A stretch of 64,000 nt of DNA, from NCBI GenBank assembly GCA_000403215.2, contig KE159527.1:107497-171496 (forward strand), read 5' to 3'. Under the pieces are notes generated by a model. That model did no database searches, was not told the origin of the DNA, and saw nothing but the letters and a program-made list of their open reading frames with translations. The stretch's first letter is position 1. Each line of letters begins with the position of its first letter. A program made the position numbers and the translations under genes. This document shows, in pieces, positions 39,176-58,585 of this stretch. This stretch comes from Lachnospiraceae bacterium A4 (lineage in GTDB: Bacteria > Bacillota > Clostridia > Lachnospirales > Lachnospiraceae).

Positions 39176-39198
39176 AAAAAGCATAAAGCGCTACCGCT
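39176..39198 (-). terminator. Weak terminator candidate after aat
   Basis: A four-pair stem AGCG-GTAG-CGCT overlaps the aat stop codon and is followed on the minus strand by TTATGCTTTTTT. The stem is short, so this is tentative. It would end the long operon that starts near 58.6 kb. Confidence 0.3.
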
Positions 39199-39844
39199 GC
39201 AATCCTTTTGCGAGCAGACGCTCGTACTCCTCCCACGAAATGTATCTGCCGCCCATGCTCTCCAAATGCTCTGTGTGGAACTGACAGTCAATGAACAGAA
39301 ATTTTTCCTTCTCCAAGAAGTGCGCAAAAGCAATCAGCGCTGTCTTAGAGCCATTTTCCTTTTCGGAGAACATACTCTCACCAAAAAAGCACTTTCCAAT
39401 GCTGACGCCATAAAATCCGCCTGCCAGCACGTCATCTTCCAACACCTCCACGCTGACCGCATACCCCTGCTCGTGCAGACGGCGGTATGCCTCCTCCATC
39501 TCATCGGAAATCCAAGTTCCCTCATTGAATTCTCTCTTTAACCGGCAGCGGTGCATCGTGTCTGCAAAATCTCTGTTCAGCACAACGCGGAGTGTGTGCT
39601 TTTTCATGTACTTTCGCATAGAGTGCGACACATGAATCTCGCTTGGAAAAATAACAAAGCGCTTTTTCGGACACCACCACAGAATTTCCTCTCCCGGATT
39701 GTACCATGGAAATATCCCGTGCGAGTATGCTAACAAGAGCCGCTCGACAGACAAATCCCCGCCAACACCCAGCAGTCCATCCTCCCTTGCAAGTGTTGGA
39801 TGCGGAAACGAGATTTCCTTTTCATTGATGCGAAATACTGGCAT
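39191..39844 (-). CDS. aat: Leucyl/phenylalanyl-tRNA-protein transferase
   Basis: A 217-residue Aat enzyme, the usual length. It transfers Leu or Phe from tRNA to the N terminus of proteins beginning with Arg or Lys, making them N-degrons. Family motifs are FPHP, GLLGVGGDLS, AYSHGIFPWYN, WWCPKKRFVIF, GTWISDEM, GGFYGVSIG, FFGESMFS and LFIDCQFHTEHLESMGG. The start ATG at 39844 has AAGGAG 7 bases upstream. It follows clpA by 22 bases and completes a clpS-clpA-aat unit, so the enzyme making the degron is encoded with its recognition adaptor and unfoldase. Confidence 0.95.
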   Translation of the reverse strand: MPVFRINEKEISFPHPTLAREDGLLGVGGDLSVERLLLAYSHGIFPWYNPGEEILWWCPKKRFVIFPSEIHVSHSMRKYMKKHTLRVVLNRDFADTMHRCRLKREFNEGTWISDEMEEAYRRLHEQGYAVSVEVLEDDVLAGGFYGVSIGKCFFGESMFSEKENGSKTALIAFAHFLEKEKFLFIDCQFHTEHLESMGGRYISWEEYERLLAKGLQR

Positions 39845-39866
39845 GACCGTTCTCCTTTTCTGTAAT

Positions 39867-42191
39867 TCATACTTTTTTCTTTTTCGGATGAATGCTCTTT
39901 TTGGGCTGATCCTGCGGGTATTCAAGATGAAAGCAGTCCTCCTGCGTTGTCAGCTTACATACTCCGCCTTTTTTGAGTTTACCGAACAAGATTTCATCAA
40001 CGAGAAGCGGTTTCACTTCGCTCTGTATCACCCGGTCAATCTCTCTTGCACCAAATTCTGTAGTAATGCCTTTTTGCTGTAATAATTTTTTTGCTGCTGC
40101 GCTGACTGACAACTCGACCTTTTTCAAGCGAAGCATCTTTTGCAGCTCGCCTAGCTTTTTCTCTGTAATCTGGGCTGCCATCGCACTGTCCATACCGTGA
40201 AATACCACAATCTTATTCAGACGGTTGCGAAATTCCGGTTGGAAGATACGTTTCACTTCCTCCATAATCACATCCGACTTGACGTCCTGTCCGGTGAAGC
40301 CGATGCCATGCTTTCCAATCCGGCTTGCACCCGCGTTGGAGGTCATGATGACAATGACATTGCGAAAATCTGCCTTTCTGCCCTGATTGTCTGTCAGCGT
40401 GGCATAATCCATCACCTGTAGGAGAATGTTATAAATATCTGGATGCGCCTTCTCAATCTCATCCAGCAATAGCACTGCATGGGGATTTTTGCGAATCTCC
40501 TCCGTCAGCAGCCCGCCCTCCTCATAGCCGACATATCCTGCGGGAGAGCCGATCAGCTTCGCAACGGCATGTTTTTCCTCATACTCACTCATATCAAAAC
40601 GAATCAGTTTGATGCCCATCTCATCGGCAAGACTTCTTGCAATCTCGGTCTTTCCGACACCTGTAGGTCCCACAAAAAGCAGGCTTGCAAGCGGTTTTCC
40701 CTCCTCCAAAAGCCCTGCTCTCGAAAATTTTACGGCATTGACTACCTGTGCGACTGCCTCGTCCTGACCAAACACACGGCTCGTCAGGCGCTTTTCCAAT
40801 GTCGCAAGTGTTTCAATCTCATCCTGCTCTACCACTTGTTTGGGAATCTGACAGGTTTTGGAGAGAATCTCATCTATCAAATCCGTTCCAACAGACTGTT
40901 TTTTTTGATTTAAAGGATGCAGTCTGCGATACGCCCCCGCCTCATCAATCAAATCAATCGCCTTGTCTGGCAGATAGCGCTCATTGACATATTTCGCACT
41001 CATGTTTACTGCATACGCGATGACACCCTTCCCGTAAGTGACGCCATGATATTTTTCATAGTTCTCTTTGAGTCCCTCCAAAATGCAGGTGGCATCTTCG
41101 ATGTCAGGTTCTTTGATATCAATATTCTGAAAGCGTCTCACAAGGCTCTTGCTCTTCTCGAAATGCTTCTTGTATTCCTCATAGGTCGTCGCACCGATAA
41201 ATCGGACATTCCCTGCTGCCAGATAGGGCTTTAGCATATTAGAGATGTCAAATGCGCCTCCATTCACCGCACCGGCACCGACAATGTTGTGAATTTCATC
41301 AATGTACACGATGGGCTTCTCCTCACGGCTGATGCTGTCCATCACGCGCTTAAACCGTTTCTCAAAATCACCGCGAAACTGTGTTCCGGCAATCAAGCTT
41401 CCAAGATCCAGCGAAAAAATCTTCGCGTCCCTCAATGGCTCTGGCACATTTTCCTCTTCAATCAGCCGCGCAAGACCATATGTAATCGCTGTCTTGCCAA
41501 CGCCGGGCTCCCCGATATGGAGAGGATTATTCTTCTCTTTGCGGCACAGAATCTGCATCGTCCGCTCAAGCTCCTCCTCCCTGCCAATCAGAGGATTTAC
41601 GCCGTCCAGCGCATCGTTGAGACAGACTGCAAACTGCTGCCACACCTTCTCCGGCAAGGCTTCTGACGCTGCCTCCTCCGCCTCCGCGGTGTGACCCTCA
41701 TCATCTCGGTACGCGTCTTTTGTCTGCCTGACAGCAGCCGCCTCCTCGTGCAAAACAGTCATCTGCTGTAAGAGCTCAGCATGTTCGATTCCCTGCAACT
41801 GCATGTAGTATACGGCATAGCTTTCCTCCAGCTCAAACATGGCATGGACAAGATGCATCAAGCCAACAACATTCCGCCCACCCCCCTGCGCCGAATGCCA
41901 TGCGTAGGACAACAGGCTTCCCATACCAGCAGAGAACTCTGGATTTTGATCAGGCGCCTGATTCGTACACTCCTCAGAGTGAACCGCAACCATATATTCG
42001 TTAAAATAGCCTTCAAGCTGCGCAGTCAGGTCATGAATACTGCCGCCGCAGTCCTCAAATGCCTCCGCAAACAACTGATTCTCACAGATCACATACAATA
42101 ACAGCTCTGGCGTCACAAGCTCGTAATGCCGTTCCTTCGCCAACACGATCACAGAATTGATAATCTCTGCAACTTCCCTTGATACCTGCAT
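39867..42191 (-). CDS. clpA: ClpA AAA+ unfoldase
   Basis: A 774-residue ClpA with the N-terminal domain (about 1-145, two four-helix repeats binding ClpS), a D1 AAA module with Walker A GEPGVGKT and Walker B IVYIDEIHN, and a D2 module with Walker A GPTGVGKT and Walker B LLLDEIEKAHPD. The loop HGIGF in D2 is the IGF/IGL type that docks on ClpP. The C terminus is rich in lysine. It unfolds substrates for ClpP; clpP is not in the window. The ATG lies 6 bases after the clpS stop and its GGAGG site is within clpS, so translation is coupled. Confidence 0.95.
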   Translation of the reverse strand: MQVSREVAEIINSVIVLAKERHYELVTPELLLYVICENQLFAEAFEDCGGSIHDLTAQLEGYFNEYMVAVHSEECTNQAPDQNPEFSAGMGSLLSYAWHSAQGGGRNVVGLMHLVHAMFELEESYAVYYMQLQGIEHAELLQQMTVLHEEAAAVRQTKDAYRDDEGHTAEAEEAASEALPEKVWQQFAVCLNDALDGVNPLIGREEELERTMQILCRKEKNNPLHIGEPGVGKTAITYGLARLIEEENVPEPLRDAKIFSLDLGSLIAGTQFRGDFEKRFKRVMDSISREEKPIVYIDEIHNIVGAGAVNGGAFDISNMLKPYLAAGNVRFIGATTYEEYKKHFEKSKSLVRRFQNIDIKEPDIEDATCILEGLKENYEKYHGVTYGKGVIAYAVNMSAKYVNERYLPDKAIDLIDEAGAYRRLHPLNQKKQSVGTDLIDEILSKTCQIPKQVVEQDEIETLATLEKRLTSRVFGQDEAVAQVVNAVKFSRAGLLEEGKPLASLLFVGPTGVGKTEIARSLADEMGIKLIRFDMSEYEEKHAVAKLIGSPAGYVGYEEGGLLTEEIRKNPHAVLLLDEIEKAHPDIYNILLQVMDYATLTDNQGRKADFRNVIVIMTSNAGASRIGKHGIGFTGQDVKSDVIMEEVKRIFQPEFRNRLNKIVVFHGMDSAMAAQITEKKLGELQKMLRLKKVELSVSAAAKKLLQQKGITTEFGAREIDRVIQSEVKPLLVDEILFGKLKKGGVCKLTTQEDCFHLEYPQDQPKKSIHPKKKKV

Positions 42192-42197
42192 ACCTTC

Positions 42198-42497
42198 CTA
42201 CGCCTCCTCTATGGTCATTCGAAACGGAAACCCTTCTGCCTTTGCCCGTGCCGCCGCCGACTGTACCTTTGAGACTGCAATATCGTATGGGTATGTCCCC
42301 ACGGCTGCCTTTCCTGTCTCATGTACCAACAGCATCAGTCTCTCCGCTTCTATTTCATCTTTATGAAAAAGCTCGCGCAGAATGTCTACCACAAAATCCA
42401 TTGTGGTAAAATCATCATTGTGCATGATCACCTTATACTGTTTGGGCTCCCGTATTTTTATACGTGTACTCTCTCTTGTTTCTCCCTGTATCGCCAT
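42198..42497 (-). CDS. clpS: ClpS N-degron adaptor
   Basis: A 99-residue ClpS. The core has KVIMHNDDFTTMDFVVDIL and HETGKAAVGTY, in which the NDD and the following T/M residues form the pocket for N-terminal Leu, Phe, Tyr or Trp and the HxxG stretch the second wall. A short basic N-terminal extension would enter the ClpA pore. It hands N-degron proteins to ClpA. The gene begins 18 bases after the stop of the VWA gene, with GAGGT 9 bases upstream, so it appears to continue the MoxR/VWA operon. Confidence 0.95.
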   Translation of the reverse strand: MAIQGETRESTRIKIREPKQYKVIMHNDDFTTMDFVVDILRELFHKDEIEAERLMLLVHETGKAAVGTYPYDIAVSKVQSAAARAKAEGFPFRMTIEEA

Positions 42498-42515: not shown

Positions 42516-43700
42516 TTACCTCATTTTCTCAAAATTAGACAAATCCTGCCCTTTCAGCGCCTTCTCCAGAAGCGTCGGCAAAAGCTGCGGTATGCAGGCA
42601 AAACAAGGAACCCCCAGCCCTGCAATCTTCTGTGCTGTCTGTGCATCATAATACGGCTTGCCGCCGTCGGCAATCGCCAAGAGGCTGATCACCGTCACAC
42701 CGGACTCCTTCATATCGCTGATTCGCCGCAAAAGCCCTGCTCTGTTTCCACCCTCATCCAAGTCGGAGATCAGAAAAAACAGGGTCTTTGCCGGATTCTC
42801 AATGAACTGTTCACAGTAGGCGATAGATTTGTTTATATCTGTGCCGCCGCCAAGCTGAAAACCAAAGAGCAGATCAACAGGGTCCTCACTTTTCTCTGTC
42901 AAATCCACGATATTCGTGTCGAACGCGACAATCCGCGTCTTGATGCTCGCCATGCTCGCCAGAATACAGCTAATGATCGACGAATAGATGACCGACTCCC
43001 CCATCGAACCACTCTGGTCAATGTCAAGAATAATCGTCCACTTGTTTGCTGCCGTGGTACTGGTCCGGTCAAAAAAGTAAAAATGTTCCGGCACAATTGT
43101 CTTTAAATCAGGATTATAGTGCTTTAAATTGCGGTTTATAGTCATCTTAAAATCCATCGCTGATGCGGACGGAATCGGTGAATGCTTTCTTTTGTTGACC
43201 GCAGCAGTTACAGCGCGCCGGATATCCTGCTCGAGCAGCTTATTGATTTCCTCGACAATCTTCTTGATAAATGTGCGCACACTTTCCTTGGAACGCTTTG
43301 GGATCTGGTCCTTGAGTGTCAGTATTGTCGAGGCAAGCCCCATATCCGGCTCCATATTCTCCAATAACTCCGGCTCAAATAACAATTGTTTTAGTCCGCA
43401 GCGCGTCACAGCATCATTCTGGATAACCGTCACCAACTCCTTATCAAACAGTGTCCGCACATCGCCGAGCCAGCGGCTGATCTGCGGATTGGAGGGGCCC
43501 CTGCCCGCACCTCTGCCCGGATTATTCTGCCCGCCAAAACCGCCGAATTCTGTCCTGTTATAGATCGAAGCCAATGCCTGATCCATCAAGTCCTGCTCGT
43601 GTGAGAGCGACATGTCTCCGTCTCCCATGCCCGACAGCCGCTTGTCACTCTCCTGCCCCAGAATCAGCCGCCATCTGGTGATTTGTTCTTTTGCTTCCAT
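42516..43700 (-). CDS. VWA (von Willebrand A) domain protein of a MoxR/VWA system
   Basis: A protein of about 394 residues, counted from the ATG at 43700 (GGAGG 11 bases upstream). The N-terminal half is helical with a Gly/Asn-rich stretch (about 53-68). A VWA domain follows with a complete metal site: DQSGS (about 228-232), the threonine of GGGTDI and the aspartate of SDLDEGG. VWA proteins of this kind act as partners of MoxR ATPases, as in RavA/ViaA and CbbQ/CbbO, helping to insert metals or remodel targets. A MoxR gene lies three genes upstream. The target is unknown. Its stop is 18 bases from clpS. Confidence 0.88.
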   Translation of the reverse strand: MEAKEQITRWRLILGQESDKRLSGMGDGDMSLSHEQDLMDQALASIYNRTEFGGFGGQNNPGRGAGRGPSNPQISRWLGDVRTLFDKELVTVIQNDAVTRCGLKQLLFEPELLENMEPDMGLASTILTLKDQIPKRSKESVRTFIKKIVEEINKLLEQDIRRAVTAAVNKRKHSPIPSASAMDFKMTINRNLKHYNPDLKTIVPEHFYFFDRTSTTAANKWTIILDIDQSGSMGESVIYSSIISCILASMASIKTRIVAFDTNIVDLTEKSEDPVDLLFGFQLGGGTDINKSIAYCEQFIENPAKTLFFLISDLDEGGNRAGLLRRISDMKESGVTVISLLAIADGGKPYYDAQTAQKIAGLGVPCFACIPQLLPTLLEKALKGQDLSNFEKMR

Positions 43701-43722
43701 CGTATCACATACCTCCTCTGGT

Positions 43723-45981
43723 TTACAGGTCAAAATCAAAGTCGTCCAGCCCCTCGATCATCTGCTGTGCGCTCTCGTCGAGCACAGCATTTACCACCTC
43801 GCTGACCTCCTGTCCATTCAGTCCTAAAATCTCGCCAAGATTTTCTGCGATCTGGTCTTTTTCCACGGCGGAAAAGTCGGCAAACGCACGCCGCAGAAAC
43901 ACGAGCGCCCGCTTGAACTCCTCATCGTCGAGTGTAACAAGATAATCATTCAGACTTTCCCACAAGGACAGCCGCGCAATCAGCGCATACCTGTTTTTCA
44001 TGGCGAGTCCCTCAAACCACCCTGCGCCCAAATCCGCCGGAATCCCCTTGGACAACCGCCTTGATACCTCTGTCCGTAACTGCTGCGTGTTCATATTTCC
44101 ACGTTCCAGCAAAATCGCTGCCGCAAAGCCCGATAATTTGGTATTCAGGTCATCGCGCTCGGAAATGTTGTTCAACACCTTAATCCACTCCTCATGCGCC
44201 AGAAAATCGTGCGCCAGCTCGACGCTGTTTAACTGTTCGACTGCGGTAAGAACTGCCTTGCTTGCCGCATCATCACACACACAGGCAGACTCAAGTATCA
44301 GACATGCCCTGTAAAACAACTGTTTGAGAATTGGCTCTAACGGCTTTGCATCAATGCGCCGGATATTTCCGTACTGTATGACAACGGAGAGCCGCTGTGC
44401 TGTCTTTGCCAAGTCCTCCACAGAGGCGGCATCGACTGCCATTTTTTGCAGCGCCGCAGTCGCATAGCCAACCGCCTTCTCCATACCGCAGCAGCAGGCG
44501 TCCTCAATGACAAGCGCAATATCGCCCATTTTCGCTGCGTTCTCGACACGCTCCTTCATGGCAAACGACGCTGCACCGTCTATCGTATCGCCCTTTAACG
44601 CCGATTCCACCAGCTCAATCTCCGCCTCTGGCGACCAGCGCACGACCCAGTGTTCAGACCACGTCGCATTGTCCTGATTGACCGCCTGCTGCTGGGCAAA
44701 ACTCACTTGAATAACCCTGAGCCGATGCAGGAAAAAAGATCGGTGCAGGTCCATAAAAGCTGATTTTTCGGAGCTGACCCGTCTGTTCTCCCGCAAATCC
44801 AGCATTAAATCCTGCGCTGTGAGCTCACGGTATTTCTCGAGCTTCAAGTCTTTTAACTGCCTGTAAAAATCCTCCTGAATGCTGGTGCGGCTCACCCCGT
44901 CAGGAAGCGCACCGATGGTTGTGCCAATCTCTGTATCAGCCGTCGCCAGGATAATGTTTGACACACTGCCCTCCCCGATACAGGTCTGCGCCGCATCGCG
45001 CAAATCCCTGAGCGAAGCGATCGTTCCACCCCTGAGCGAAGCTAACGACATTGCCAGCCGGACTGCCTCAATCACAGACGCCGATGAAATAGGGTTTCCT
45101 TTCTCGCGCTGGTATTTTGCGAGCCGTATCAGATAACTGTAAACCGCGTACATCGGCTCGCCCTTCTTCAAACCTTCCCACAAAAGTGCATAATACGCGG
45201 GCGCCTTATTCCCTGCGCCGTATCCCGCCCTCGTGGAAAGCCGATAGTAGGAGTACGGCATCAACGTATGGTTTGCGCCCACCTTGGGCATTTTTGACAA
45301 ATCCTCGTCTGCCTCCTGCCAGCTTTTCAAGCCTTCGACATGATAGGACCCTGTCACCACGACGATGTTCTCCGGCTCAATGCCCGAATCCACCGCCTTT
45401 TTGATCTGCTGGCGCATATATGCCTCACGAAGTACAGTTTCCGCCCAGTCATTTTCCCGTCCTGCGGTGAGACTCCTGATATTGGCGCCAAAGCTATTGG
45501 CACCCATGTGATAGGCTTCTATGCTGCCTGCCTGCTCCATGACACGCTCCCAGAAGGTGTCGTGACCGTCCTCGCCGCTCTGCTGGTCAAGCTGCTCATA
45601 AACATTCATCCGGCACTCCTCGCCCTCCGCCTCCTGCATTCCGCACTCTGGTATCGCGAGAAATGTCTCTGAGGGCAGATCTATAAAACGGCACGTGACA
45701 TGATGGTTGTGGCACCACTGGATTGCCTGATACTCGGGCGAGTACTCTGCAAAGGGATACAGTATTGTCCTCACAGGCGCCTCTTTTGTGTAGGCAAGCA
45801 CTGCGATCGGCGGCTTTGTCTCCTTCCGCACCATATCCGACAGCAAATCTTCAAAATCACTTGGTCCCTCGACCAATACCAGCTTTGGCTTCTTCTCGTC
45901 GAGAAATCCCCGCAGGTAATACGCCCCGGCAGGCGATAAATGCCGTATTCCGAAAAAATTTGGATTTTTCATCTTGAACAC
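43723..45981 (-). CDS. DUF5682-type protein (TraB/EreA-like N-terminal fold), MoxR/VWA-associated
   Basis: A 752-residue protein. The N terminus has FGIRHLSPAGAYYL and PKLVLVEGPSDFEDLL, and later VTGSYHVEGL. The RH, E and HxE positions resemble the TraB/TIKI/erythromycin-esterase-like fold, whose members use His and Glu for metal binding or hydrolysis. This match is by pattern only. Residues beyond about 300 are alpha-helical and rich in Ala, Leu and Glu. A GTG start with AGGAGAGG upstream is used; an ATG three codons in is possible. Such proteins are found with MoxR, VWA, SWIM and HEAT-like genes in many Firmicutes and Actinobacteria; the biochemical role is not known to me. Confidence 0.75.
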   Translation of the reverse strand: MFKMKNPNFFGIRHLSPAGAYYLRGFLDEKKPKLVLVEGPSDFEDLLSDMVRKETKPPIAVLAYTKEAPVRTILYPFAEYSPEYQAIQWCHNHHVTCRFIDLPSETFLAIPECGMQEAEGEECRMNVYEQLDQQSGEDGHDTFWERVMEQAGSIEAYHMGANSFGANIRSLTAGRENDWAETVLREAYMRQQIKKAVDSGIEPENIVVVTGSYHVEGLKSWQEADEDLSKMPKVGANHTLMPYSYYRLSTRAGYGAGNKAPAYYALLWEGLKKGEPMYAVYSYLIRLAKYQREKGNPISSASVIEAVRLAMSLASLRGGTIASLRDLRDAAQTCIGEGSVSNIILATADTEIGTTIGALPDGVSRTSIQEDFYRQLKDLKLEKYRELTAQDLMLDLRENRRVSSEKSAFMDLHRSFFLHRLRVIQVSFAQQQAVNQDNATWSEHWVVRWSPEAEIELVESALKGDTIDGAASFAMKERVENAAKMGDIALVIEDACCCGMEKAVGYATAALQKMAVDAASVEDLAKTAQRLSVVIQYGNIRRIDAKPLEPILKQLFYRACLILESACVCDDAASKAVLTAVEQLNSVELAHDFLAHEEWIKVLNNISERDDLNTKLSGFAAAILLERGNMNTQQLRTEVSRRLSKGIPADLGAGWFEGLAMKNRYALIARLSLWESLNDYLVTLDDEEFKRALVFLRRAFADFSAVEKDQIAENLGEILGLNGQEVSEVVNAVLDESAQQMIEGLDDFDFDL

Positions 45982-46291
45982 CTAATTCCTCTCCTATAAG
46001 TATGTGCATATTGGGATACATTAAATCTCCAACCTGAATCGTCACTTTATACAGATTACCATATGCCCCTATCATTCCCAATTGAAAAAAATTGTCCGGT
46101 GTTGTATATCTCGCATCAATTTCGCCTCGCAGCATCATGATAGTCAATTCATCTTTTGACTTATCTGTGTATTTTATAACTGCCGATTTCACCGTTGCAG
46201 TATTGTCTGGGCACCATTCCACATCAACTAATCCAACCCACTGATCAGGGTATTTTTTTTGAATCTCTTCCCATGTCATGCGATTTTCCAT
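45857..46291 (-). CDS. Small protein overlapping the DUF5682 start
   Basis: A 144-residue open frame beginning MENRMTWEEIQKKYPDQWVGLVD. The first 77 residues (to FQLGMIG) look like a conserved small soluble family of unknown function; GAGGTG lies 5 bases before the ATG. The rest of the frame overlaps the first 125 bases of the DUF5682-type gene in another frame. The tail has odd composition, as expected for non-native coding. Either the two genes truly overlap or a frameshift removed the original stop. It lies between the MoxR and DUF5682 genes. Confidence 0.6.
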   Translation of the reverse strand: MENRMTWEEIQKKYPDQWVGLVDVEWCPDNTATVKSAVIKYTDKSKDELTIMMLRGEIDARYTTPDNFFQLGMIGAYGNLYKVTIQVGDLMYPNMHILIGEELGVQDEKSKFFRNTAFIACRGVLPAGISRREEAKAGIGRGTK

Positions 46292-49352: not shown

Positions 49353-49617
49353 TTATGCGGTTCTCCGCTTCCACCCAAACAAGGTCTTTTTGAAATTGCG
49401 CTTATTTTCTATGACACGAATGTCACCCGGAAACTTATCCCAATAAGCAAAGCCTTTCTTGATATCAGCCGGTACGCCCAGCCCATACGCATAAATCTCA
49501 CCCAGTCCGATCGCGCTGAGCCGCTCGCCCGGATACTGCTCAAACTCCCGCTTTGTCACGCTTCACCCAAAGCTGATTCACTGCATAGTCCACCCGTTCA
49601 TCAAAACACGCACTCAT
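49353..49617 (-). pseudogene. Remnant of a SEL1-repeat-like gene
   Basis: An ATG at 49617 with AAGGAG 7 bases upstream begins MSACFDERVDYAVNQLWVKR and reaches a stop after about 25 codons. From 49559 another frame continues ERLSAIGLGEIYAYGLGVPADIKKGF and ends FKKTLFGWKRRTA at 49353, a typical SEL1 repeat and C terminus. The middle of the gene is missing and the frames do not join. It is therefore a deleted and frameshifted remnant of a SEL1/TPR-type gene lying between two HEAT-like genes. Confidence 0.7.
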
Positions 49618-50218: not shown

Positions 50219-51807
50219 ATAACCGCCTCCACGATGGTCTTGCCACAAGCTTGAATTTCTTTCACACCGATTTCTTTGTGTTGATTAAAATTAAAGCTAA
50301 TCATATATCCTTTCTCTTTATGATAGGCTTCCAGATAGTCCGCAAGCTGTTTCTCGCCTCTCTCATTGTATTCTTTTCCATGCCAAATTTTTAGTTCGAC
50401 AATAAACTGCTCTCCCAGATAATCCACGATGATATCTGTGCGCCGCTCATCTCTTGTCTGCGCCTCCATGTAATAGTTTCCCGTGCCGTTAATGATAGGC
50501 TCTAAATATAATAAAAAGAATTTGCGGCCGTATTTCTCAATGAAGTTCATATCCTGTTCACCGTATATCTCATGAAAATGGGCGACAAATTTTCGCAGTA
50601 CCAATTCCATGTCAAGCCTGTTATTTTTGATAAACTGTATCCTGTCACTCCCACCTCTCCGATAGACTTCACTTTCTATGGCTTCCCTTGTCATAAAAAA
50701 GTTTAACAGGTACATCTCAAAAATACGGTTTGCAATCGCAACCTGACCCGTTCTTTCTGTCAGGAAGCCAAACATCACGCCGATACTGACTGCTTTTTCG
50801 TCAGGACTATATGGAATCCTTCTTCCTTGATATAGAATGCTTTCAATGATGGCGTACAGCTCGCTGTACAAGTCAAGCTGCTTTACCATACTCTCAAACA
50901 GTGGACTGCTCTCCCTTAAAATTCCAGCGACTGCCTTCGCCACACCCTCTTTTGACCATGCCGCACTTGGTGTCTCAAACCCTTCGCTTCCCACAATTTT
51001 CTCATCAATGCATTTACATATTAATGATACAAGTACAGGATAGCCTGTGGTATATTGATAGATCTCCTCTGCCACTGTAGACAAATCCGCGCCTGTAGTG
51101 TAATCAGCCTCATATTCCTCCAGCATCAATGCAATCTGGGCAGCAGAAAAACTCATCTCGATCTCAAATGGTGCGGCAATATTCCACGGACTGTTATACT
51201 GGTGCTCTACCTCAGCACGCAGCTTTAATTTGAGATTTTTGATATTGTAGACTCCCGCCAGAATGACACTATGAAAAATCGGAACGCGGTCTCGTTTCAG
51301 ATAATATCCCCGAAGCTGTGCCAAAAAGTCAATAAACACTTGATTATTGCTCGCGCTGTCCACCTCATCAATCATCAGCACAACAGGGCGCAGACTGATT
51401 CCGCACAGCTCACTCAGACACTCAAAGAGTTCGCTCAATCCGCCCTCCGCATTTTCTTTCATAAAATCATGCAATACTTGCAAAAGTCTGTCTTTATCCT
51501 CTGCCTTTGCAAACTGGAATGCGCGCGACAACTTCTTTGCAAAAGTCTGGGAGAAAAGAACATCATCCGCAAACTTTGCCATTTCAATTTCCTGAAAATC
51601 TAAAGATAAGACAAGATAGTTGTTCTCCAAATAAGTTTCCAGTGCAGCTAACGTTGTTGTCTTTCCATACTGCCGTCCCTTATTGATGACAAAGTAGCTG
51701 CCCTCGTCCACATAATTCTCCTTGATTTCCTTTAGCCGGTCATCAAGCCGAACCATATAATGTCTTTGCGGATTACAGACGCCTGTGACATTAAATCTAC
51801 GCCTCAT
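50215..51807 (-). CDS. ATPase with C-terminal PD-(D/E)XK nuclease-like domain
   Basis: A 530-residue protein, only distantly related to the DUF1703-type genes in the window. Walker A is KGRQYGKTT near residue 48, Walker B is VVLMIDEVD, and a nuclease-like core RTDIIVDYLG followed by FIVELKIWHG (D and ExK) lies at the C terminus with EKGYMISFNFNQ after it. The layout, ATPase then restriction-like nuclease, is the same as in the other copies. It interrupts the MoxR/VWA cluster between a HEAT-like gene and a shortened membrane protein gene, so it may be a later insertion. Confidence 0.8.
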   Translation of the reverse strand: MRRRFNVTGVCNPQRHYMVRLDDRLKEIKENYVDEGSYFVINKGRQYGKTTTLAALETYLENNYLVLSLDFQEIEMAKFADDVLFSQTFAKKLSRAFQFAKAEDKDRLLQVLHDFMKENAEGGLSELFECLSELCGISLRPVVLMIDEVDSASNNQVFIDFLAQLRGYYLKRDRVPIFHSVILAGVYNIKNLKLKLRAEVEHQYNSPWNIAAPFEIEMSFSAAQIALMLEEYEADYTTGADLSTVAEEIYQYTTGYPVLVSLICKCIDEKIVGSEGFETPSAAWSKEGVAKAVAGILRESSPLFESMVKQLDLYSELYAIIESILYQGRRIPYSPDEKAVSIGVMFGFLTERTGQVAIANRIFEMYLLNFFMTREAIESEVYRRGGSDRIQFIKNNRLDMELVLRKFVAHFHEIYGEQDMNFIEKYGRKFFLLYLEPIINGTGNYYMEAQTRDERRTDIIVDYLGEQFIVELKIWHGKEYNERGEKQLADYLEAYHKEKGYMISFNFNQHKEIGVKEIQACGKTIVEAVI

Positions 51808-51836: not shown

Positions 51837-53807
51837 CTAATTTCTGCGATACCAGTCCTCCATAGATGCTTCGAGCTCCTCTGGCTTGAGGCGGTCTGCT
51901 TTCAGCGCGCCGCTTCTGACCATCGTACAGATTTCCCGCATCTCTTCCATAATCGCGTCCTTGTCCCCCGGCAGCCGAATCAGCCGCACATAGACATTAT
52001 TTGCATTGAATGACAGATGCTCTTTGACAAATTTTACGCCCAGTCCTTTGCAAACGTTCCAGTTACAGTCCTTCATGCAATTGATCAAATACATACTATA
52101 GCTGGAGTCCCAATTGATCAAATACATACTATCAGTGTCCTTGTTGGTCAATGCCCTTTGATAAAAGTACGCGCCCGCTTCCATACAGAGAACCTTATCA
52201 TTTAACGGAACCCAGTTTACCAGCACCGCATCTGTATCATGCGATGGATGCCGCATCAGCCATTGAAGCATATTCGCAGCATGGGACACTTGAATTTCTC
52301 TTCTGACCGACAAAATATCCGAATTACGACTGCTGCCAAACAATTCATACGCACCTTTTAATTTATCCCAACAGATAAAACCAACCGCCTCAAGAATCAT
52401 CCGCATCCGCTTTTCTGCTATTTTTGACGTTCTCTGGTCTATGAGCTGTGCTTCAAGCCAGTCCGCACAATCCTCGTCGTTTAGAAGCTTTGTCATCACG
52501 GCAGCAGGCAGAAAGTAGGCATCCGCCTGATACAATTCCAGCGCGAGCGCCTGCAAATCTGCATCGGGATTTACCACCAAAGACTGCATAAGAAGCAGCC
52601 CCAGACCACTAATAAATTTACCCATCGGATACAGATACTGCACATTTGCCAGACTTTGCAAAAAATCAAGCCGCCACATAATTTTCTCAACAGGATTATG
52701 CTGCTTCTTACGTTTCTCAAACAGCGCATTGACCGCAGGCAGATGTTTCAACAGCTTCCTGTAGCATTCACAGCCATGCGCACCGCCCTTTCCATATAGT
52801 GCCCGCATCATATCATGCAACAGATAAAATACATCGCTCTGTTCCTTATCTGCAGCCGAATCCTCATCTATTTTTTCTATTTGTTCAAGGACTCGGTCAC
52901 AGAGTTCTTCTACGACCTCTGCCGCCCAGTTTGAGGACGCATCTACCAGATACCCCAGCACCGCCTTTAGGTTCCTCTCTGCATACTCCCTGAAATAAGC
53001 TGCTGCCCGCACATCTTCCATATTGGCGAGCGCCTTAAAGGCGGCGTCTTTATTTTTGCCACGCTCCTTCTTTGTCAGCTCCAAAAGAAGCGGCACATTA
53101 TCCTGATGATGGCGCAGGGCAAAAATCAATGCCTGCCGTACTTCCTTCTGCGCAGTGTCCAGCATTTTGATATAAAAATCATTGGCATCTGCCCCGGCAG
53201 CCGCCTCAATTACCTCGACACGCCGCACCATCTCTCTCTTGCCTGCGGGATCGAAATTCTGATACAGCAGCGGAAGGATACTCTTGTCCCTGTCCTCACA
53301 AAGCCATTTTGTCACATCGTTTGCAAACTCTGCGTAAGAAGCACCCAGTGCCTGCACGAGCGCGCATTTCACACGGTAATCCCTGAAAAGCTCAGGGTGT
53401 TCCTCGCGGATACGATAGGAGCTGCCGCCTGCTCCTTGCAGCCCCTCCAGCAATTCCTTTAAGACTGAATACGGCGCATTGACAATCATGCCAGCCGCTG
53501 TCTCCTCCGACTCGAAGATCTCAATCGGAGTGACTTCTCCCTTTATGTCCACTGCGCCAAGCGTGCAGATCACGGCGTCTGTAAGGGACACTGCCTCCAG
53601 CAAAAGACCCTGTGGATTGAGTATGTCATTTGACAATAGCCGTTCTGTCAACTGCCCCACTTTGGCAAAGACTGGTGATGCCGCCTCCAATGGCTTGAAT
53701 GCCTCATATGTCCGCTTTAACCGAAAATCCTCGGCTAACAGGCTCGTCCCCGCCATCGCTGCCGCACGGAGACGCTCCCGCAGTTCGTTTATTGGTGTTG
53801 TATCCAT
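51837..53807 (-). CDS. HEAT-like repeat protein, paralogue 2 of the MoxR/VWA cluster
   Basis: A 656-residue all-alpha protein most similar to the one at 47445-49313: nearly identical start (MDTTPINELRERLRAA), LLAEDFRLKRTYEAFKPLEA, DAVICTLGAVDIKGE, and DFYIKMLDTAQKEVRQALIF. It has an 11-codon tandem duplication near the C terminus not seen in the others. GGAGG lies 9 bases before the ATG. The close likeness to paralogue 1 suggests they arose by duplication, with the ATPase-nuclease, membrane protein and SEL1 remnant now between them. It is probably a scaffold or substrate-recognition subunit of the MoxR system. Confidence 0.75.
   Translation of the reverse strand: MDTTPINELRERLRAAAMAGTSLLAEDFRLKRTYEAFKPLEAASPVFAKVGQLTERLLSNDILNPQGLLLEAVSLTDAVICTLGAVDIKGEVTPIEIFESEETAAGMIVNAPYSVLKELLEGLQGAGGSSYRIREEHPELFRDYRVKCALVQALGASYAEFANDVTKWLCEDRDKSILPLLYQNFDPAGKREMVRRVEVIEAAAGADANDFYIKMLDTAQKEVRQALIFALRHHQDNVPLLLELTKKERGKNKDAAFKALANMEDVRAAAYFREYAERNLKAVLGYLVDASSNWAAEVVEELCDRVLEQIEKIDEDSAADKEQSDVFYLLHDMMRALYGKGGAHGCECYRKLLKHLPAVNALFEKRKKQHNPVEKIMWRLDFLQSLANVQYLYPMGKFISGLGLLLMQSLVVNPDADLQALALELYQADAYFLPAAVMTKLLNDEDCADWLEAQLIDQRTSKIAEKRMRMILEAVGFICWDKLKGAYELFGSSRNSDILSVRREIQVSHAANMLQWLMRHPSHDTDAVLVNWVPLNDKVLCMEAGAYFYQRALTNKDTDSMYLINWDSSYSMYLINCMKDCNWNVCKGLGVKFVKEHLSFNANNVYVRLIRLPGDKDAIMEEMREICTMVRSGALKADRLKPEELEASMEDWYRRN
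52078..52132 (-). repeat. Tandem 33-bp duplication inside HEAT-like paralogue 2
   Basis: Two identical 22-base copies, at 52078-52099 and 52111-52132, are offset by exactly 33 bases. The protein therefore reads SMYLIN twice, in frame. The other two paralogues lack the extra 11 codons. This is a recent slippage-type duplication. Confidence 0.8.
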
Positions 53808-53851: not shown

Positions 53852-54193
53852 TCAATTCATCCACACAGTTTCCTTTTCTATTGTTTTATAAGCACTGCTG
53901 TTATTCACAGCCAATCCCATATCTAATAGCATTCTATCCATTTTGTCATCATCTTCCTTTAGCGCAGCTAAATCCACAATATCAAATTTGATTTTTATTT
54001 CTTTATTTAATGCGTCATACAATTTAAAATAATCTTCCCCAGATAATTCACCCTTGCCGGAGACTATAATATCCAAATCACTTTTTTCATTTGCCTGTCC
54101 CCGCGCATAAGAGCCTGCATATCCAAGCCTATATCCTAAGTTTAACTGCATCAATGCCTTGAATACACAGTCAATCTCCTTCATTGACAGCAT
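53852..54193 (-). CDS. mntA: MntA-type nucleotidyltransferase antitoxin
   Basis: A 113-residue minimal nucleotidyltransferase. I use the ATG at 54193 with TAGGAGG 9 bases upstream rather than upstream in-frame ATGs lying in hepT. The motif GSYARGQANEKSDLD fits GSX10DXD exactly (G27, S28, D39, D41). In type VII toxin-antitoxin systems MntA adds AMP to the HepT toxin and silences it. The hepT gene lies immediately upstream, as expected for this pair. Confidence 0.9.
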   Translation of the reverse strand: MLSMKEIDCVFKALMQLNLGYRLGYAGSYARGQANEKSDLDIIVSGKGELSGEDYFKLYDALNKEIKIKFDIVDLAALKEDDDKMDRMLLDMGLAVNNSSAYKTIEKETVWMN

Positions 54194-54206
54194 AAAATAA
54201 TACCTC

Positions 54207-54590
54207 CTATTCATTGGCATTTTTATGTTCCTGACAATATTTTATCCTATTCTTGACCTGATCATAACTTCCATTTTGAATACAATCCTGCACAAAAGAA
54301 AACAAAACTTGTCTGTTTAGTTTTATATAATCATGTGCAATCATATTGCGTACAGGAACTAAATTTCCTGTACTGATAAAATTTAATACCTGATAAGAAT
54401 CTGTTGTAAGCTGCCTGCTCAAACTATCAATTTGCAGTATACAAAATGAACAAATATCCATGCAATCCTCATTCAATGCAAATTCGAATGAAGTTTTGCA
54501 TTGATATCTTTTTAATGCACTTTTTATTTTATCCATATACGTCAGTATTTTTAATAATACTTGTACATCCCTTGCTAAAGTTTTCCCCAT
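54207..54590 (-). CDS. hepT: HepT-type HEPN ribonuclease toxin
   Basis: A 127-residue HEPN protein with the active-site motif RNMIAHDY (R81, H86, Y88), exactly RX4HXY. HepT cleaves RNA unless MntA adenylylates the tyrosine. It is directly upstream of mntA. The pair lies between the SWIM gene and a HEAT-like gene of the MoxR/VWA cluster. The gaps are 62 bases to the SWIM stop and 44 bases from mntA to the next start, so the pair may be read with the cluster or from its own promoter. Confidence 0.9.
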   Translation of the reverse strand: MGKTLARDVQVLLKILTYMDKIKSALKRYQCKTSFEFALNEDCMDICSFCILQIDSLSRQLTTDSYQVLNFISTGNLVPVRNMIAHDYIKLNRQVLFSFVQDCIQNGSYDQVKNRIKYCQEHKNANE

Positions 54591-54652: not shown

Positions 54653-56131
54653 TCAATACAGCAGCCGCACCACCGCATCATGTGTAACGATGCTGAGCGG
54701 CTGTACCATGAGTCTGCGGTTCTCTTTATTGTAGTAAAATGCACCCAAAAGTACCTGATTTTCAAGCAGAGAGGCACTCGGCAGCATGGAAAGGCGCACG
54801 ATTGTCTCCTCCAGCTCTGGCATATCGCCCAGCAGGATTGTGTCATTGTTCTTGTCCACCAGCACAAAATCTTCCCCTATTTTTCCAATCTGGTTAAAGG
54901 CGAGAAGCTTCACCATCATGGGTTGTGTCATTGCATTTTTGAGGAAATTTTTGACAGCCTTTGCCTCCTGCTTGACAGAGGTCACTGCATGTTCAAAAAC
55001 TGCTTCATAATCTGATTTTTCGTACTCTCGGATCTGGGCACCGTCCCATCTCACGCGGACATTGCCGTCGCCCGGATAAAAGACGGCACTCGGAACCTTC
55101 GCAACGCCAAAGACCGTATCCTCCTGCTTGACGTATTTGAGTGATTTTAAAGGGCGGTAATTGTAGTTCATATAGACCTCGCCTGTGTCCAGATCTGCCC
55201 AGCAGCCTGTGTCGATGTACTCTTTTCTCGCCTCGTCATATGTCACCCAGAATGAAAGCTGCATCAGATTTGCATCCTTTTTGCTCTTGCCCAGCTCCTC
55301 TAACTCCGACAGCTTCCAGATACCGCCCAGCTCTTCATATAAAACGGTGTCCTCAAGCGTCACATCATCCTTCTCTAACTTCTCATTCAAATATTGGCGT
55401 GACTTTTTGATCAGTGTCCACAGCTTTTCCAGTACGCTGATCGCCGCATCGTAATGAGACTCATCCTGATCTTTCTGAAATGCAGTGATCTCGATCAAAA
55501 GCTGGCTGCACAGCCGCTGCGGTCCCGGCAGATAATAGTCGCCCATCTGCTTTGCAAGCTGCTGATACGTCTTGAGCGAAGCGCCGCCAATCGTGCCAAG
55601 CCCCGCAGACATCAGGTCATTGACTACCTTTTCGACGAGGTCCAGCCCCTCTAGCTGTGTTTTGAGCTTCTTCACTCTTGCATTCTTCGCCGTCTTTGCG
55701 GCGGAAGCTTTTTTCTTCTCGGCCTTTTTCTTTTCCTCCTCGGTCATCTCGCTCTCTGGTTTTGCCACCTCGGCTGCCTTGTTTTCCTTTGCCTGCTTCT
55801 TCTCGCGCTTTTTCTGGATATCCTCCGGGATTTCGCAGATGTCAAAGGTCTTTTTCGCAAGCATCTCATACATCAGTGCCAGACTGTGCTTGCACGGAAA
55901 CTGCCTGCTGGGGCAGGAACAGCGAAACACGGGATTATTTTCATCTATGTAGTCTGCCGATGTGATATAGTTGCTCTTGCCGCTGCCTGTGCACTCGCCC
56001 ATATAGAATGTATCATCCTGCGACTGCTCTAATTTCACAAAGCCGCCTTTCTGTGATATCTTTTTGCCGTTTGAAGCTGCCGCAGCGTTCGGCGCCAGCG
56101 CTAAGATTTGTTGTTCATTGATCTCTCTCAT
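54653..56131 (-). CDS. SWIM zinc-finger protein of the MoxR/VWA cluster
   Basis: A 492-residue protein with a SWIM zinc finger near the N terminus: C71, C73, C80 and H82 (CSC...CKH). A Lys/Glu/Ala-rich coiled region (about 108-155) follows, and then a helical and beta domain of about 330 residues of unknown type. SWIM fingers bind nucleic acid or protein; here they may recognise the target of the MoxR/VWA machine. The same combination of SWIM, HEAT-like, MoxR, DUF5682 and VWA genes recurs in other bacteria, as I recall. Confidence 0.85.
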   Translation of the reverse strand: MREINEQQILALAPNAAAASNGKKISQKGGFVKLEQSQDDTFYMGECTGSGKSNYITSADYIDENNPVFRCSCPSRQFPCKHSLALMYEMLAKKTFDICEIPEDIQKKREKKQAKENKAAEVAKPESEMTEEEKKKAEKKKASAAKTAKNARVKKLKTQLEGLDLVEKVVNDLMSAGLGTIGGASLKTYQQLAKQMGDYYLPGPQRLCSQLLIEITAFQKDQDESHYDAAISVLEKLWTLIKKSRQYLNEKLEKDDVTLEDTVLYEELGGIWKLSELEELGKSKKDANLMQLSFWVTYDEARKEYIDTGCWADLDTGEVYMNYNYRPLKSLKYVKQEDTVFGVAKVPSAVFYPGDGNVRVRWDGAQIREYEKSDYEAVFEHAVTSVKQEAKAVKNFLKNAMTQPMMVKLLAFNQIGKIGEDFVLVDKNNDTILLGDMPELEETIVRLSMLPSASLLENQVLLGAFYYNKENRRLMVQPLSIVTHDAVVRLLY

Positions 56132-56172
56132 GTGATTTCGATTCCTTTCCTCTATAAAATAATATGATAAGC

Positions 56173-58140
56173 CTACAACTGCTTCCTCAGCTTTTTGCTG
56201 TACTCTGCCACCTCCGCGGTCATGCCCTTGATCGTCTGCTCCTCCGCCAGCTTGATAAATTCGTCAAGTTCTGCCAGCACTGCCTCCATGTCGCCCGGAA
56301 GCCTCTGGAAAAAGGCGCGTATCTGCCACGGTTCTCTGGCGATGATATTGCCAAGAACCAACGCAAAGACGCTCGAAAGCCCCTTGCATTTTTTCCATCC
56401 GCAGCTCTGCATATATTCCAGATAGGAATACAGCATTGAGGATGCGGGTGTTCCGCCATGCCGCCCAATCGCAAGACATCTGTCATAAAACCATTCTCCC
56501 ACCTTAGCACATTCCGCCGGGTCGTCTTTGTTTGTCCATTGGTAAACCAGCTCGTCCCATCCTGCCTGCATCATCCAGTCTAAGATGGCTCTGTGTCCGG
56601 GAATATCTATTGTGCGCTTTACCTCCTCATCACTTCCCTGTGTGTGACCAGTCGCAACATACGCATGCCGCGACGCGTCCCACTGGATATACTGCAATGC
56701 AGCTTTGATTGCAGTCAGTTTATTCACATCAGCTTTCGCATAGACGCCATCACTTAACTGTGCATCAAACCATTCTGTACAGTGTTCATCGCGGCACAGC
56801 TTCACCAGTGACGCCGCTGTCAGAAAGTAGACATTCTCCTTTGCCTGCGCCATGATAAAATCCGCTATTTGTGGTGCGTCATTCAGGACAAACGAGCTTG
56901 CCAGATGCATACCGATCACCTGATCCCACGGACGCTTCTTCTTGTCATTCCAGCTCTTATATCCGGTTGTGATGACATCATAATTCATATCTTTGCTGAT
57001 GACTTTGAGCTCTTCCTGATGTGCAAGCAGCTCCTGATAACATGCAATCACTTCATCGCCGCTCTTGCCGATCAGCGCCTCCACGCATTGACAAAACTCA
57101 TATTTCAGGGTATTTTTGAGCGGGCATTTGTTCTCATCATCACAGTTACATTTGGCACAGATCTCATTGTCCGACCGCCTCAGCTCGTCCTTCGATGCCA
57201 GTACCTTCGCAAGCAGCTCCATACACAGCCGGGCAATCAGCTTTGACGCACTCTTTGTCGTCGATGTCAGCAGACATCTGCATACGGTTGAGAGCCCTTT
57301 CTTCGCCATTTTCTCATAAATGACAACCACTCTGTCGTCGTCCATACACCCCAGTGACTCAAGTGCCATCTCTTTATTTTTGCCCTTTTCTGTCTGTGCC
57401 AGTTGCAGCAGCAGTTCGATATTGGACTGGTCCAGACGCAGCAGGCGGAGCAGTTCCAGACGAATATCCTTCGTGGCATCTGGAAGCATTTCGCGGTAAA
57501 AATCGTTCTCTTTTGCCCCGGCAATGCTCCCGATCAGTTGTAATCTGCGCATCATTTCTATTCTGCCCTTTGGATTAAAATCCTTTTTTAATAAAGGAAC
57601 AATCGACTCATCCTCGCCAAACAGCATCGTCTGTACCAGCCCGGCAAGCTCTGTATAAGAGGCGCCAAGTGCCTTGACCATCGCATGTTTCACACGGTAA
57701 TCTTTAAAAATCCAAGACTTTGTTTCGTACAGATTCTCCACATATGCATAGTGACCGCTGCCGCTGGTGGTCAGTGCTTCGATCAATTCCTTTACCAGTG
57801 AACAGGGTGCAGGAACCATCACACTCCCCAGATGTCCGGCAGCACTCGCGAGTCCAGCCGCCTCGACATTCCCTTCCACCTCCACTGCCGCCAAAGTACA
57901 GATCACTGCGTCGAGCAGTGTGACTGCCTCGAGCAGTGCAAACTGTGGACATGGACAATCCGGCGACAAAAGCTGTGCCGTCAACTGCCCTGCTTTTGCA
58001 AAGACTGGCGAAGCTGCCTCCAATGGTTTCAATGCCTCCAGAGCACGCCGCAGACGAAAATCTTCCGACAATAGATTGACCCCTGCGAGCATGGCTGCAC
58101 GTAGACGCTCACGCAGCTCATATACTGGTTTTACATCCAT
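56173..58140 (-). CDS. HEAT-like repeat protein, paralogue 3 of the MoxR/VWA cluster
   Basis: A 655-residue all-alpha protein, the most divergent of the three: it shares YELRERLRAA, EAASPVFAKAGQL, ALLEAVTLLDAVICTL and KALGASYTEL but differs through most of the middle. It carries a cysteine cluster absent from the others (CAKCNCDDENKCPLKN, then CQC) that could bind a metal. The start ATG at 58140 has AAGGAGG 8 bases upstream, and a GTG lies one codon before it. It is the first of the HEAT-like genes, 41 bases ahead of the SWIM gene and about 16 bases after the thioesterase stop. Confidence 0.75.
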   Translation of the reverse strand: MDVKPVYELRERLRAAMLAGVNLLSEDFRLRRALEALKPLEAASPVFAKAGQLTAQLLSPDCPCPQFALLEAVTLLDAVICTLAAVEVEGNVEAAGLASAAGHLGSVMVPAPCSLVKELIEALTTSGSGHYAYVENLYETKSWIFKDYRVKHAMVKALGASYTELAGLVQTMLFGEDESIVPLLKKDFNPKGRIEMMRRLQLIGSIAGAKENDFYREMLPDATKDIRLELLRLLRLDQSNIELLLQLAQTEKGKNKEMALESLGCMDDDRVVVIYEKMAKKGLSTVCRCLLTSTTKSASKLIARLCMELLAKVLASKDELRRSDNEICAKCNCDDENKCPLKNTLKYEFCQCVEALIGKSGDEVIACYQELLAHQEELKVISKDMNYDVITTGYKSWNDKKKRPWDQVIGMHLASSFVLNDAPQIADFIMAQAKENVYFLTAASLVKLCRDEHCTEWFDAQLSDGVYAKADVNKLTAIKAALQYIQWDASRHAYVATGHTQGSDEEVKRTIDIPGHRAILDWMMQAGWDELVYQWTNKDDPAECAKVGEWFYDRCLAIGRHGGTPASSMLYSYLEYMQSCGWKKCKGLSSVFALVLGNIIAREPWQIRAFFQRLPGDMEAVLAELDEFIKLAEEQTIKGMTAEVAEYSKKLRKQL

Positions 58141-58156
58141 CACATTCTCCTCCTTT

Positions 58157-58585
58157 TCATTGCATCATCTTTCGAAAACATACATCTATCTCAGGATTGT
58201 CGTGTTTTAACGAAATGACATGCCCGTCACTGTCCAAAAAACAATGTGTGCTTTTCCCTTGCGTGCGAAGCTCTCCCGTGCTGCTGTCTGTCACCTCATA
58301 TTCCAAATCAAGCCTCACCCCGTTATACTTCACCACTTTGACCTGAATCTGAACAGTATCATCAAAATGCACCATGCTTTTATATTGACAGCTTACGGAG
58401 ACAACGGGACTGATAATCCCTTTTTTCTCCATATCGCAGTAGGAAATCCCAAACTGGCTCATAGCGTCCATCCGCGCCTCCTCCATCCAACGGATATAGT
58501 TGGAATGGTGGACAATCCCCATCTGGTCTGTCTCATAATATTTCGCATGATGCATGTATGGTCTGATATGATTTTCTGTGCTCAT
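58157..58585 (-). CDS. Acyl-CoA thioesterase (4HBT hotdog family)
   Basis: A protein of about 142 residues beginning MSTENHIRPY. ETDQMGIVHHSNYIRWMEEARMD is the signature of YbgC/FcbC-type hotdog thioesterases, in which the aspartate of DQMG is catalytic. They cleave acyl-CoA thioesters; the chain length cannot be read. The start lies about 11 bases after GGGGAG. It is about 16 bases upstream of a HEAT-like gene, so it may be the first gene of the MoxR/VWA operon by position only. Confidence 0.88.
   Translation of the reverse strand: MSTENHIRPYMHHAKYYETDQMGIVHHSNYIRWMEEARMDAMSQFGISYCDMEKKGIISPVVSVSCQYKSMVHFDDTVQIQVKVVKYNGVRLDLEYEVTDSSTGELRTQGKSTHCFLDSDGHVISLKHDNPEIDVCFRKMMQ

Follow-up and report, generated by a model that had tools for sequence, protein, structure and literature searches.

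A Yeh-type MoxR-DUF5682-VWA locus with a predicted Tiki/TraB-type hydrolase lies directly upstream of clpS-clpA-aat in one clade of Lachnospiraceae

The MoxR ATPase YehL represents one of the seven MoxR subfamilies, according to the available part of PMC3893208, and no role assigned to the YehL subfamily was found in the literature searched. In the annotation of Escherichia coli K-12, the genes follow the order yehI (encoding a DUF4132 protein), yehK, yehL (MoxR), yehM, yehP (VWA), and yehQ (SWIM). Further described relatives are the MoxR-vWA ternary conflict systems, in which, as far as the accessible text of PMC7159879 goes, the MoxR-VWA pair is accompanied by a third conserved protein, namely VMAP, an inactive STAND or FtsH. 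The locus reported here is found in a stretch of 64,000 nucleotides from Lachnospiraceae bacterium A4 (contig KE159527.1, positions 107,497 to 171,496; hereafter the window), where a Yeh-type machine, composed of SWIM, HEAT, MoxR, DUF5682, and VWA proteins, is encoded directly upstream of clpS-clpA-aat, an arrangement that occurs in one clade of Lachnospiraceae. As a variant, the locus belongs to a system that is known but functionally uncharacterised; the catalytic prediction made for it here is new. The original prediction for this DNA had considered the role of the module to be not established, which holds, but known relatives exist in E. coli yehL-yehM-yehP. The core genes and the N-degron genes that follow them are:

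54653-56131, minus strand: SWIM zinc-finger protein, core (PF04434, 7e-5; CxC...CxH motif)
46308-47390, minus strand: MoxR AAA+ ATPase, YehL-like, core (AAA_5 PF07728, 7.1e-38)
43723-45981, minus strand: DUF5682 protein, YehM-like, core (PF18934, 4e-150; AlphaFold2 model with a predicted local distance difference test score, pLDDT, of 81)
42516-43739, minus strand: VWA protein (CoxE-type), partner of MoxR, YehP-like, core (PF05762, 1.4e-42; DxSxS present)
42198-42497, minus strand: clpS, N-degron adaptor (PF02617, 1.5e-30), starting 18 nt past the VWA gene
39867-42191, minus strand: clpA, AAA+ unfoldase of ClpAP (TIGR02639, 981 bits, slightly below the cut-off of 993)
39191-39925, minus strand: aat, leucyl/phenylalanyl-tRNA-protein transferase (TIGR00667, 188 bits, above cut-off)

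The window MoxR is 38% identical to YehL over 362 amino acids (1e-80), the VWA protein 34% identical to YehP over 388 amino acids (1e-76), and the DUF5682 protein 26% identical to YehM over 759 amino acids (8e-38, and 6.9e-84 with a profile). These three proteins are therefore homologous in the two systems, with their genes in the same order, and a SWIM protein is present in both. The E. coli system differs in having the DUF4132 protein YehI at the place of the window HEAT proteins, while the window adds clpS-clpA-aat downstream; no DUF4132 (YehI-like) match was obtained among the 20 window genes scanned with Pfam. A SWIM profile built from 19 sequences did not match YehQ, though the window SWIM protein carries PF04434, and for this reason the locus is filed as a variant: judged by sequence, the MoxR-DUF5682-VWA triad is Yeh-type, and the whole locus is a variant rather than an E. 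coli-like YehLMPQ member. A second locus of the same genome (contig C36:166000-185999, L074) contains MoxR, a DUF5682 of type B, VWA, SWIM, a small gene, and a DUF4132 gene (1222 amino acids), and its MoxR and VWA proteins are nearer to those of E. coli (47 and 41% identity) than are those of the window (38 and 34%).

The core is recurrent in related genomes. SWIM, HEAT, MoxR, DUF5682, and VWA genes are all on the match strand in 57 of 80 related loci, many of the loci without the full five-gene set being cut by contig ends, and 54 of these 57 have the genes in that order; the SWIM gene is upstream of MoxR in 62 of the 80. The window MoxR has GEPGTAKS as its Walker A motif and ARVEEI in the Walker B region, the latter differing from the usual form of a hydrophobic stretch followed by DE. 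The ternary conflict systems described in the available part of PMC7159879 likewise combine a MoxR-VWA pair and one more conserved protein, which is VMAP, an inactive STAND or FtsH there and DUF5682 in the window; Pfam scans of the 20 window genes gave no VMAP, inactive STAND or FtsH as third component.

The DUF5682 protein is made of an N domain (about residues 1-260) and a largely helical C-terminal part. From sequence comparison, the N domain is assigned to the Tiki/TraB superfamily; this assignment is new, and no mention of the family name DUF5682 was found in the literature searched. When residues 1-260 were compared by hhalign with 14 TraB/PrgY/GumN sequences, the match reached 95.8% with an E value of 7.1e-9 (one comparison), and the alignment covered 217 columns and residues 4-235; the 14 sequences come from the 14 of 25 loci in which the match was on the plus strand. 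No value exceeded 0.4% with the controls MoxR, VWA, ClpA, Aat, and SWIM or 1.9% with 37 control families built from genes of the fetched loci, and the C-terminal part of DUF5682 against TraB stood at 0.6%. In the TraB alignment, the five columns that reach conservation in 13 or more of the 14 sequences (H, E, R, G, H) all correspond to residues of DUF5682, namely H14, E38, R185, G211, and H214, and these are invariant in both alignments of the family, in 15 of 15 members (including four of type B) and in 50 of 50. In the family alignment, an RH that comes after strand one, an E within strand two, R-E-x-x-M, and GxxH are invariant. The resulting constellation of GxxH, E, R, and GxxH is common to the N domain of DUF5682 and to the Tiki/TraB/PrgY/GumN superfamily (with ChaN and Ere), from which DUF5682 differs by its fused long helical C-terminal part and by the MoxR-VWA pair encoded alongside. 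YehM retains GIRH, RE..M, and GGWH, and in type B proteins a P replaces the first G of the constellation. The Pfam model for ChaN, labelled 'Tiki superfamily', matched 5 of 15 DUF5682 members with a best E value of 1.8e-4, and the window protein at 0.04 (14.4 bits, below the gathering score of 27.7).

In the AlphaFold2 model, strands and helices alternate in the N domain, with H14 just after strand 8-12, E38 inside strand 34-40, and H214 just after strand 206-211; the active sites of the Tiki/TraB-type fold are found at strand ends. A sequence search for a known structure returned two rows of the Protein Data Bank at E<=10, both taken as chance.

Other observations weigh against this assignment or against a peptidase activity. 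A Foldseek search with the full DUF5682 model gave no Tiki/TraB structure among the 50 rows listed and none at E<=0.001, the list being made mostly of helical repeat proteins. The Tiki-family endopeptidase requires two histidines and two glutamates, according to the accessible text of PMC6254334, and the position of the first glutamate, two residues before the first histidine, is occupied by I12 in DUF5682 and by T or S in TraB. Given this replacement, DUF5682 keeps only part of the set of two histidines and two glutamates; the absence of the first glutamate bears on the mechanism, and the TraB members likewise lack it. The superfamily also includes non-peptidases, among them the Ere esterases and a homologue without the catalytic set (PMC6254334, same part) and, by the name given in Pfam, a haem-binding protein. 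Since esterases and a haem-binding protein belong to it, the peptidase activity of DUF5682 is predicted by inference only. Tiki proteins themselves cleave the amino terminus of Wnt and are metalloproteases, as stated in the available portion of PMC12329661.

The genes of the locus were found on the minus strand in the order thioesterase, HEAT3, SWIM, HepT-MntA, HEAT2, ATPase-nuclease, HEAT1, MoxR, DUF5682, VWA, clpS, clpA, and aat, so that the one-strand run of the original prediction stands, as does its spacing of 18 nt between the VWA stop and the clpS start. This gap contains a GAGG sequence resembling a Shine-Dalgarno (SD) site, the gap between clpS and clpA is 6 nt, and the longest Aat open reading frame (ORF) shares 59 nt with clpA. 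A terminator at the VWA-clpS junction was looked for, and the scan of the window showed no terminator-like site on the minus strand at that point; over the whole window there are 18 terminator-like sites versus 16.5 in shuffles, and 35 promoter-like sites versus 25.5 (standard deviation 5.8). Given the short gap, the SD-like site, and the absence of a terminator-like site, the genes from VWA through clpS-clpA-aat are likely to be co-transcribed. A stricter terminator scan found none at 25 clpS upstream junctions (16 linked to the core and 9 unlinked; only the insert-clpS gap was taken in three genomes with an inserted gene), and, being empty at linked and unlinked junctions alike, it cannot tell the two apart. 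No match was obtained in the window with Rfam at gathering thresholds or with ARAGORN.

All three genes of the N-degron pathway are present and contiguous in the window, where they are preceded by the Yeh-type core, whereas the clpS-clpA genes of the unlinked genomes inspected sit in other contexts. The ClpS encoded here is the sole ClpS match of the genome, and the sequences of the ClpS pocket and of the ClpA IGF loop were seen. ClpS recognises L, F, Y, and W at protein N termini, and Aat tags K and R. In E. coli, the substrates of ClpS were all found cleaved, by unknown proteases, according to the available part of PMC7966870.

The HEAT proteins are the fast-evolving part of the locus, with one to three copies wherever a locus is complete enough to be counted. 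The window has three:

56173-58143, minus strand: HEAT3, variable alpha-solenoid (HEAT_2, 0.0047, below cut-off; 39% identity to HEAT1)
51837-53807, minus strand: HEAT2, variable alpha-solenoid (HEAT_2, 1.1e-5, below cut-off; 51% identity to HEAT1)
47445-49313, minus strand: HEAT1, variable alpha-solenoid, putative client receptor (HEAT_2 PF13646, 1.2e-7, above cut-off)

The AlphaFold2 model of HEAT1 (pLDDT 85.8) is almost entirely helical, and its Foldseek rows shown were mostly HEAT/ARM proteins, with none at E<=1e-3. Between the window genome (G000) and its relative G005, MoxR is 95.0% and DUF5682 92.8% identical, versus 40-55% for the HEAT copies, with the first 300 residues of the HEAT proteins 52-67% alike and the remainder 29-43%. 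The ratio of nonsynonymous to synonymous substitution rates (dN/dS) is 0.135-0.312 for HEAT in eight comparisons from five genome pairs, a set that omits the third HEAT copy of G019-G024, whose ORF is split in G024, and the copies with no clear partner, and it is mostly 0.01-0.08 for the other genes, with one ClpS value of 0.126 and with the G006-G036 values based on very low dS. It is greater after residue 300 in 7 of the 8 comparisons. This would fit client receptors with a conserved docking half and a varied binding half; values below 1 mean that relaxed constraint also fits. Between G006 and G036, the SWIM, MoxR, DUF5682, VWA, and ClpS proteins are identical and the second HEAT copy is about 5% different, as if the HEAT genes were exchanged or diverged locally.

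In the mechanism that we tentatively favour, clients would be picked by the variable HEAT proteins, remodelled by the MoxR hexamer together with VWA, and clipped through hydrolysis by the Tiki/TraB-type domain of DUF5682. Where ClpS is present, products with a new N-terminal L, F, Y or W would go directly to ClpS-ClpAP, and those with an N-terminal K or R would follow after tagging by Aat. Taken whole, this model, in which the core clips clients and co-transcription serves the clearance of the products by ClpS-ClpAP, is held with a confidence that stays short of even, and we infer rather than observe the peptidase activity, the HEAT proteins as client receptors, the order of the steps, and the purpose of the co-transcription. 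The Tiki/TraB assignment gives a concrete form to the idea that the core prepares or selects N-degron substrates. The more specific proposal that DUF5682/YehM is one of the missing endoproteases creating bacterial N-degrons, a peptidase driven by MoxR-VWA and targeted by HEAT, so that choosing, clipping, tagging, and unfolding are encoded in one transcription unit, is considered rather unlikely.

DUF5682 occurs in 22 of 38 genomes of the genus, in 24 of 250 genomes of a family draw, and over the cut-off in 5 of 299 of a phylum draw. Type-A DUF5682 (E 4e-142 or better) is found in 18 of the 38 genus genomes, and 16 of these 18 carry clpS on the same strand no more than 3.4 kb further downstream; the exceptions are G031, with clpS on another contig, and G030, in which no ClpS was found. 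Gene maps were made from the longest ORFs and BLAST to the window proteins, which gives approximate start positions. By these maps, clpS is the next gene past VWA in 13 of the 16 linked genomes, with gaps of at most 107 nt, and aat is next to clpA in 12 of the 16, the contig ending first in G010, G023, G026, and G029. In G027, G028, and G029, a gene of 639 amino acids stands between VWA and clpS, with a DUF6020 domain in G027 (L056:10535-12454). The conserved adjacency thus holds within the genus. Outside it no such link was seen: six other genomes of the family draw carry both genes, never on the same contig. Sixteen genomes from other genera in the family draw are type A by score (G259 being assigned neither to type A nor to type B), and four of them have ClpS, always on another contig; VWA is followed by other genes in G231, G148, and G278 and lies close to the contig end in G053. 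Among the 80 related loci, the link is present in 11 of the 14 with DUF5682 at least 84% identical and in none of the other 66, of which 50 extend at least 500 nt beyond VWA.

The linked genomes share one history. In the RpoB tree (30 of the 38 genomes, 34 having a match and the linked G005, G028, and G036 having none), 13 linked genomes group with G016 in one clade that has support 95 under midpoint rooting. Of the 16 linked genomes, 13 (all but G023, G026, and G029) are represented in the ClpA tree, where their ClpA sequences are monophyletic (100/99). The cores of G031, L135, and L140 form one subclade (support 100) nested among the linked cores, while the RpoB and ClpA of G031 fall in a different clade from those of the linked genomes; given this disagreement, the core of G031 probably moved without clpS-clpA-aat. 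The simplest history consists of one joining event, vertical inheritance, and one core transfer without clpS-clpA-aat, and the ClpS link, as read from these comparisons, is of single origin and optional. For G016, which falls within the linked RpoB clade, the reading that core and ClpS were lost together was rejected, given that about 260 bases of its contig precede the right-flank gene match and an assembly gap is likelier; the thioesterase query gave no match in G016, which is uninformative. A second independent linkage of core and Clp was also rejected, since the 'ClpA' labels downstream of VWA in L154, L157, L159, and L178 are matches of only 34-148 amino acids and those of L169 and L185 are about 7-8 kb off on the other strand. 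In L120 (G078 contig C46, from another genus), MoxR (AAA_3) and DUF58 genes begin 27 nt after clpS-clpA-aat; this run was not taken as support, being a single case with a different MoxR type.

These results weigh on the functional tie in several ways. Of the 16 family-draw genomes that are type A and from other genera, 12 gave no ClpS, and it was likewise not found in 11 of 14 hand-picked core-bearing genomes (it was found in 3); the 11 include those of L135 and L140 and four phylum-draw genomes listed as 100% complete. The link amounts to one event inherited in a region whose unrelated flanks are partly kept too. It had been proposed that the MoxR module uses ClpAP as its output; with ClpS not found in those 11 genomes and a core that probably moved without clpS-clpA-aat, this is not a general rule. 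The strong form of the proposal, with MoxR-VWA unfolding or selecting substrates and ClpAP as the necessary output, finds its argument in the tight linkage of 16 of the 18 genomes, but the same two observations make it very improbable, and an obligate ClpAP output was rejected on the 11 of 14.

The single origin of the link also fits the view that the core and clpS-clpA-aat are functionally untied neighbours, which one rearrangement joined and slow decay of gene order has kept together, and which share at most a common promoter. This view agrees with the single RpoB clade (with G016) and the monophyletic ClpA, with the lacc/thioE and SHOCT flanks retained in several linked genomes, with the probable movement of the G031 core without clpS-clpA-aat, and with the genes after clpS-clpA varying widely in other genera. 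Co-occurrence data divide on it. In the genus, the co-occurrence of DUF5682 and ClpS is strong (17 of 18 genomes versus 9 of 20, p 0.001) but driven by the link itself, and without the linked genomes the association is not significant (p 0.23). In the family draw, DUF5682 and ClpS occur together in 6 of 249 genomes versus 1.76 expected (p 0.004), and type A and ClpS in 4 versus 1.22 expected (p 0.025), p values that are uncorrected for genome size or relatedness. Set against this view are this excess, the 18-nt gap with its SD-like sequence and without a terminator-like site, and the VWA-clpS gaps of the 13 directly linked genomes, which stay at or below 107 nt despite the changing HEAT and accessory genes. 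To this view we give a chance of about one in three, slightly less than to the clip-and-clear model, which remains the reading that we prefer.

Genes other than the core, HEAT, and Clp genes change from one relative to another, and bear on a further reading, that of a defence or conflict system. Those of the window are:

58157-58609, minus strand: 4HBT thioesterase (PF13279, 5.7e-18), upstream in several relatives and missing from others
54207-54590, minus strand: HepT-like protein, accessory (PF01934, 0.0044, weak and below cut-off)
53852-54220, minus strand: MntA-like nucleotidyltransferase, accessory (PF18765, 1.1e-9; PADLOC PDC-S09, 4.2e-9)
50215-51807, minus strand: AAA-ATPase with a PD-(D/E)XK nuclease domain, accessory cargo (AAA_35 PF14516, 1.7e-12; PDDEXK_3 PF13366, 8.1e-6)
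49685-50248, minus strand: membrane protein, DUF6709-like, accessory (PF20456, 1.8e-5, below cut-off; hydrophobic stretch)
49353-49559, minus strand: SEL1-like remnant (ORF; resemblance to SEL1 judged by eye)
45857-46291, minus strand: small protein, accessory, without Pfam match, its 3' end overlapping DUF5682 out of frame

The thioesterase is probably a flanking gene outside the machine. The presence of HepT-MntA, the ATPase-nuclease (found in some relatives only), the membrane protein, and the small protein differs among relatives. The largest gap among large ORFs, of 371 nt, is between the 49685-50248 ORF and HEAT1 and contains the SEL1 remnant. Relatives of the small protein were found in G003 and G029 only, among 17 loci mapped; these homologues of 78 amino acids stop before DUF5682, while the window frame extends 125 nt into it, and for this reason the window gene may have lost its stop codon. 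AAA-ATPase_like/PDDEXK_9 genes flank the locus on both sides (window 36640-38343 and 58757-60349). In other Clostridia, the inserts between DUF5682 and VWA are listed as:

L175:12325-13521: RtcB ligase
L171:4327-5532: HSDR_N-type nuclease
L170:12799-13587: alpha/beta hydrolase

As a defence system, the locus would have HEAT sensors that detect a product of the invader, and MoxR-VWA would then activate the Tiki-type hydrolase and the accessory nucleases, with ClpAP incidental. The patchy occurrence of DUF5682 in the genus, family, and phylum draws, the rapid evolution of the HEAT genes and their one to three copies, the AAA-PDDEXK and HepT-MntA cargo of the window, and the inserts just listed are all in line with this, as is the existence of published MoxR-vWA conflict systems (PMC7159879). 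The window MoxR also matches the bpMoxR model over part of the domain, with 29.8 bits and a cut-off of 27. PADLOC, however, gave no match for VWA, DUF5682, SWIM, and HEAT2 (HEAT3 not scanned) and weak partial matches for MoxR (0.0044) and HEAT1 (1.7e-4), while its candidate models were matched by the accessory proteins (MntA, 4.2e-9; small protein, 7e-5; ATPase-nuclease, 0.001). In E. coli K-12, the core has a chromosomal neighbourhood that includes metG and btsSR, and the terms SWIM, YehL, and Tiki are absent from PMC7159879. A role in defence is regarded as unlikely, and clipping of clients by the core, followed by clearance where ClpS is present, is retained as the tentative model.

For the family, these results would provide DUF5682/YehM with a biochemical identity that can be tested, that of a Tiki/TraB-type hydrolase, and with it a lead on the YehL subfamily of MoxR proteins; the homologue in E. 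coli K-12 makes a test of the role of DUF5682/YehM simple. For the protease acting upstream of ClpS, a clipping machine of Tiki type whose genes adjoin clpS offers a concrete candidate. If it is true that the linked form makes N-degrons, it would settle the question, raised in the available part of PMC7966870, of what proteases precede ClpS in the pathway.

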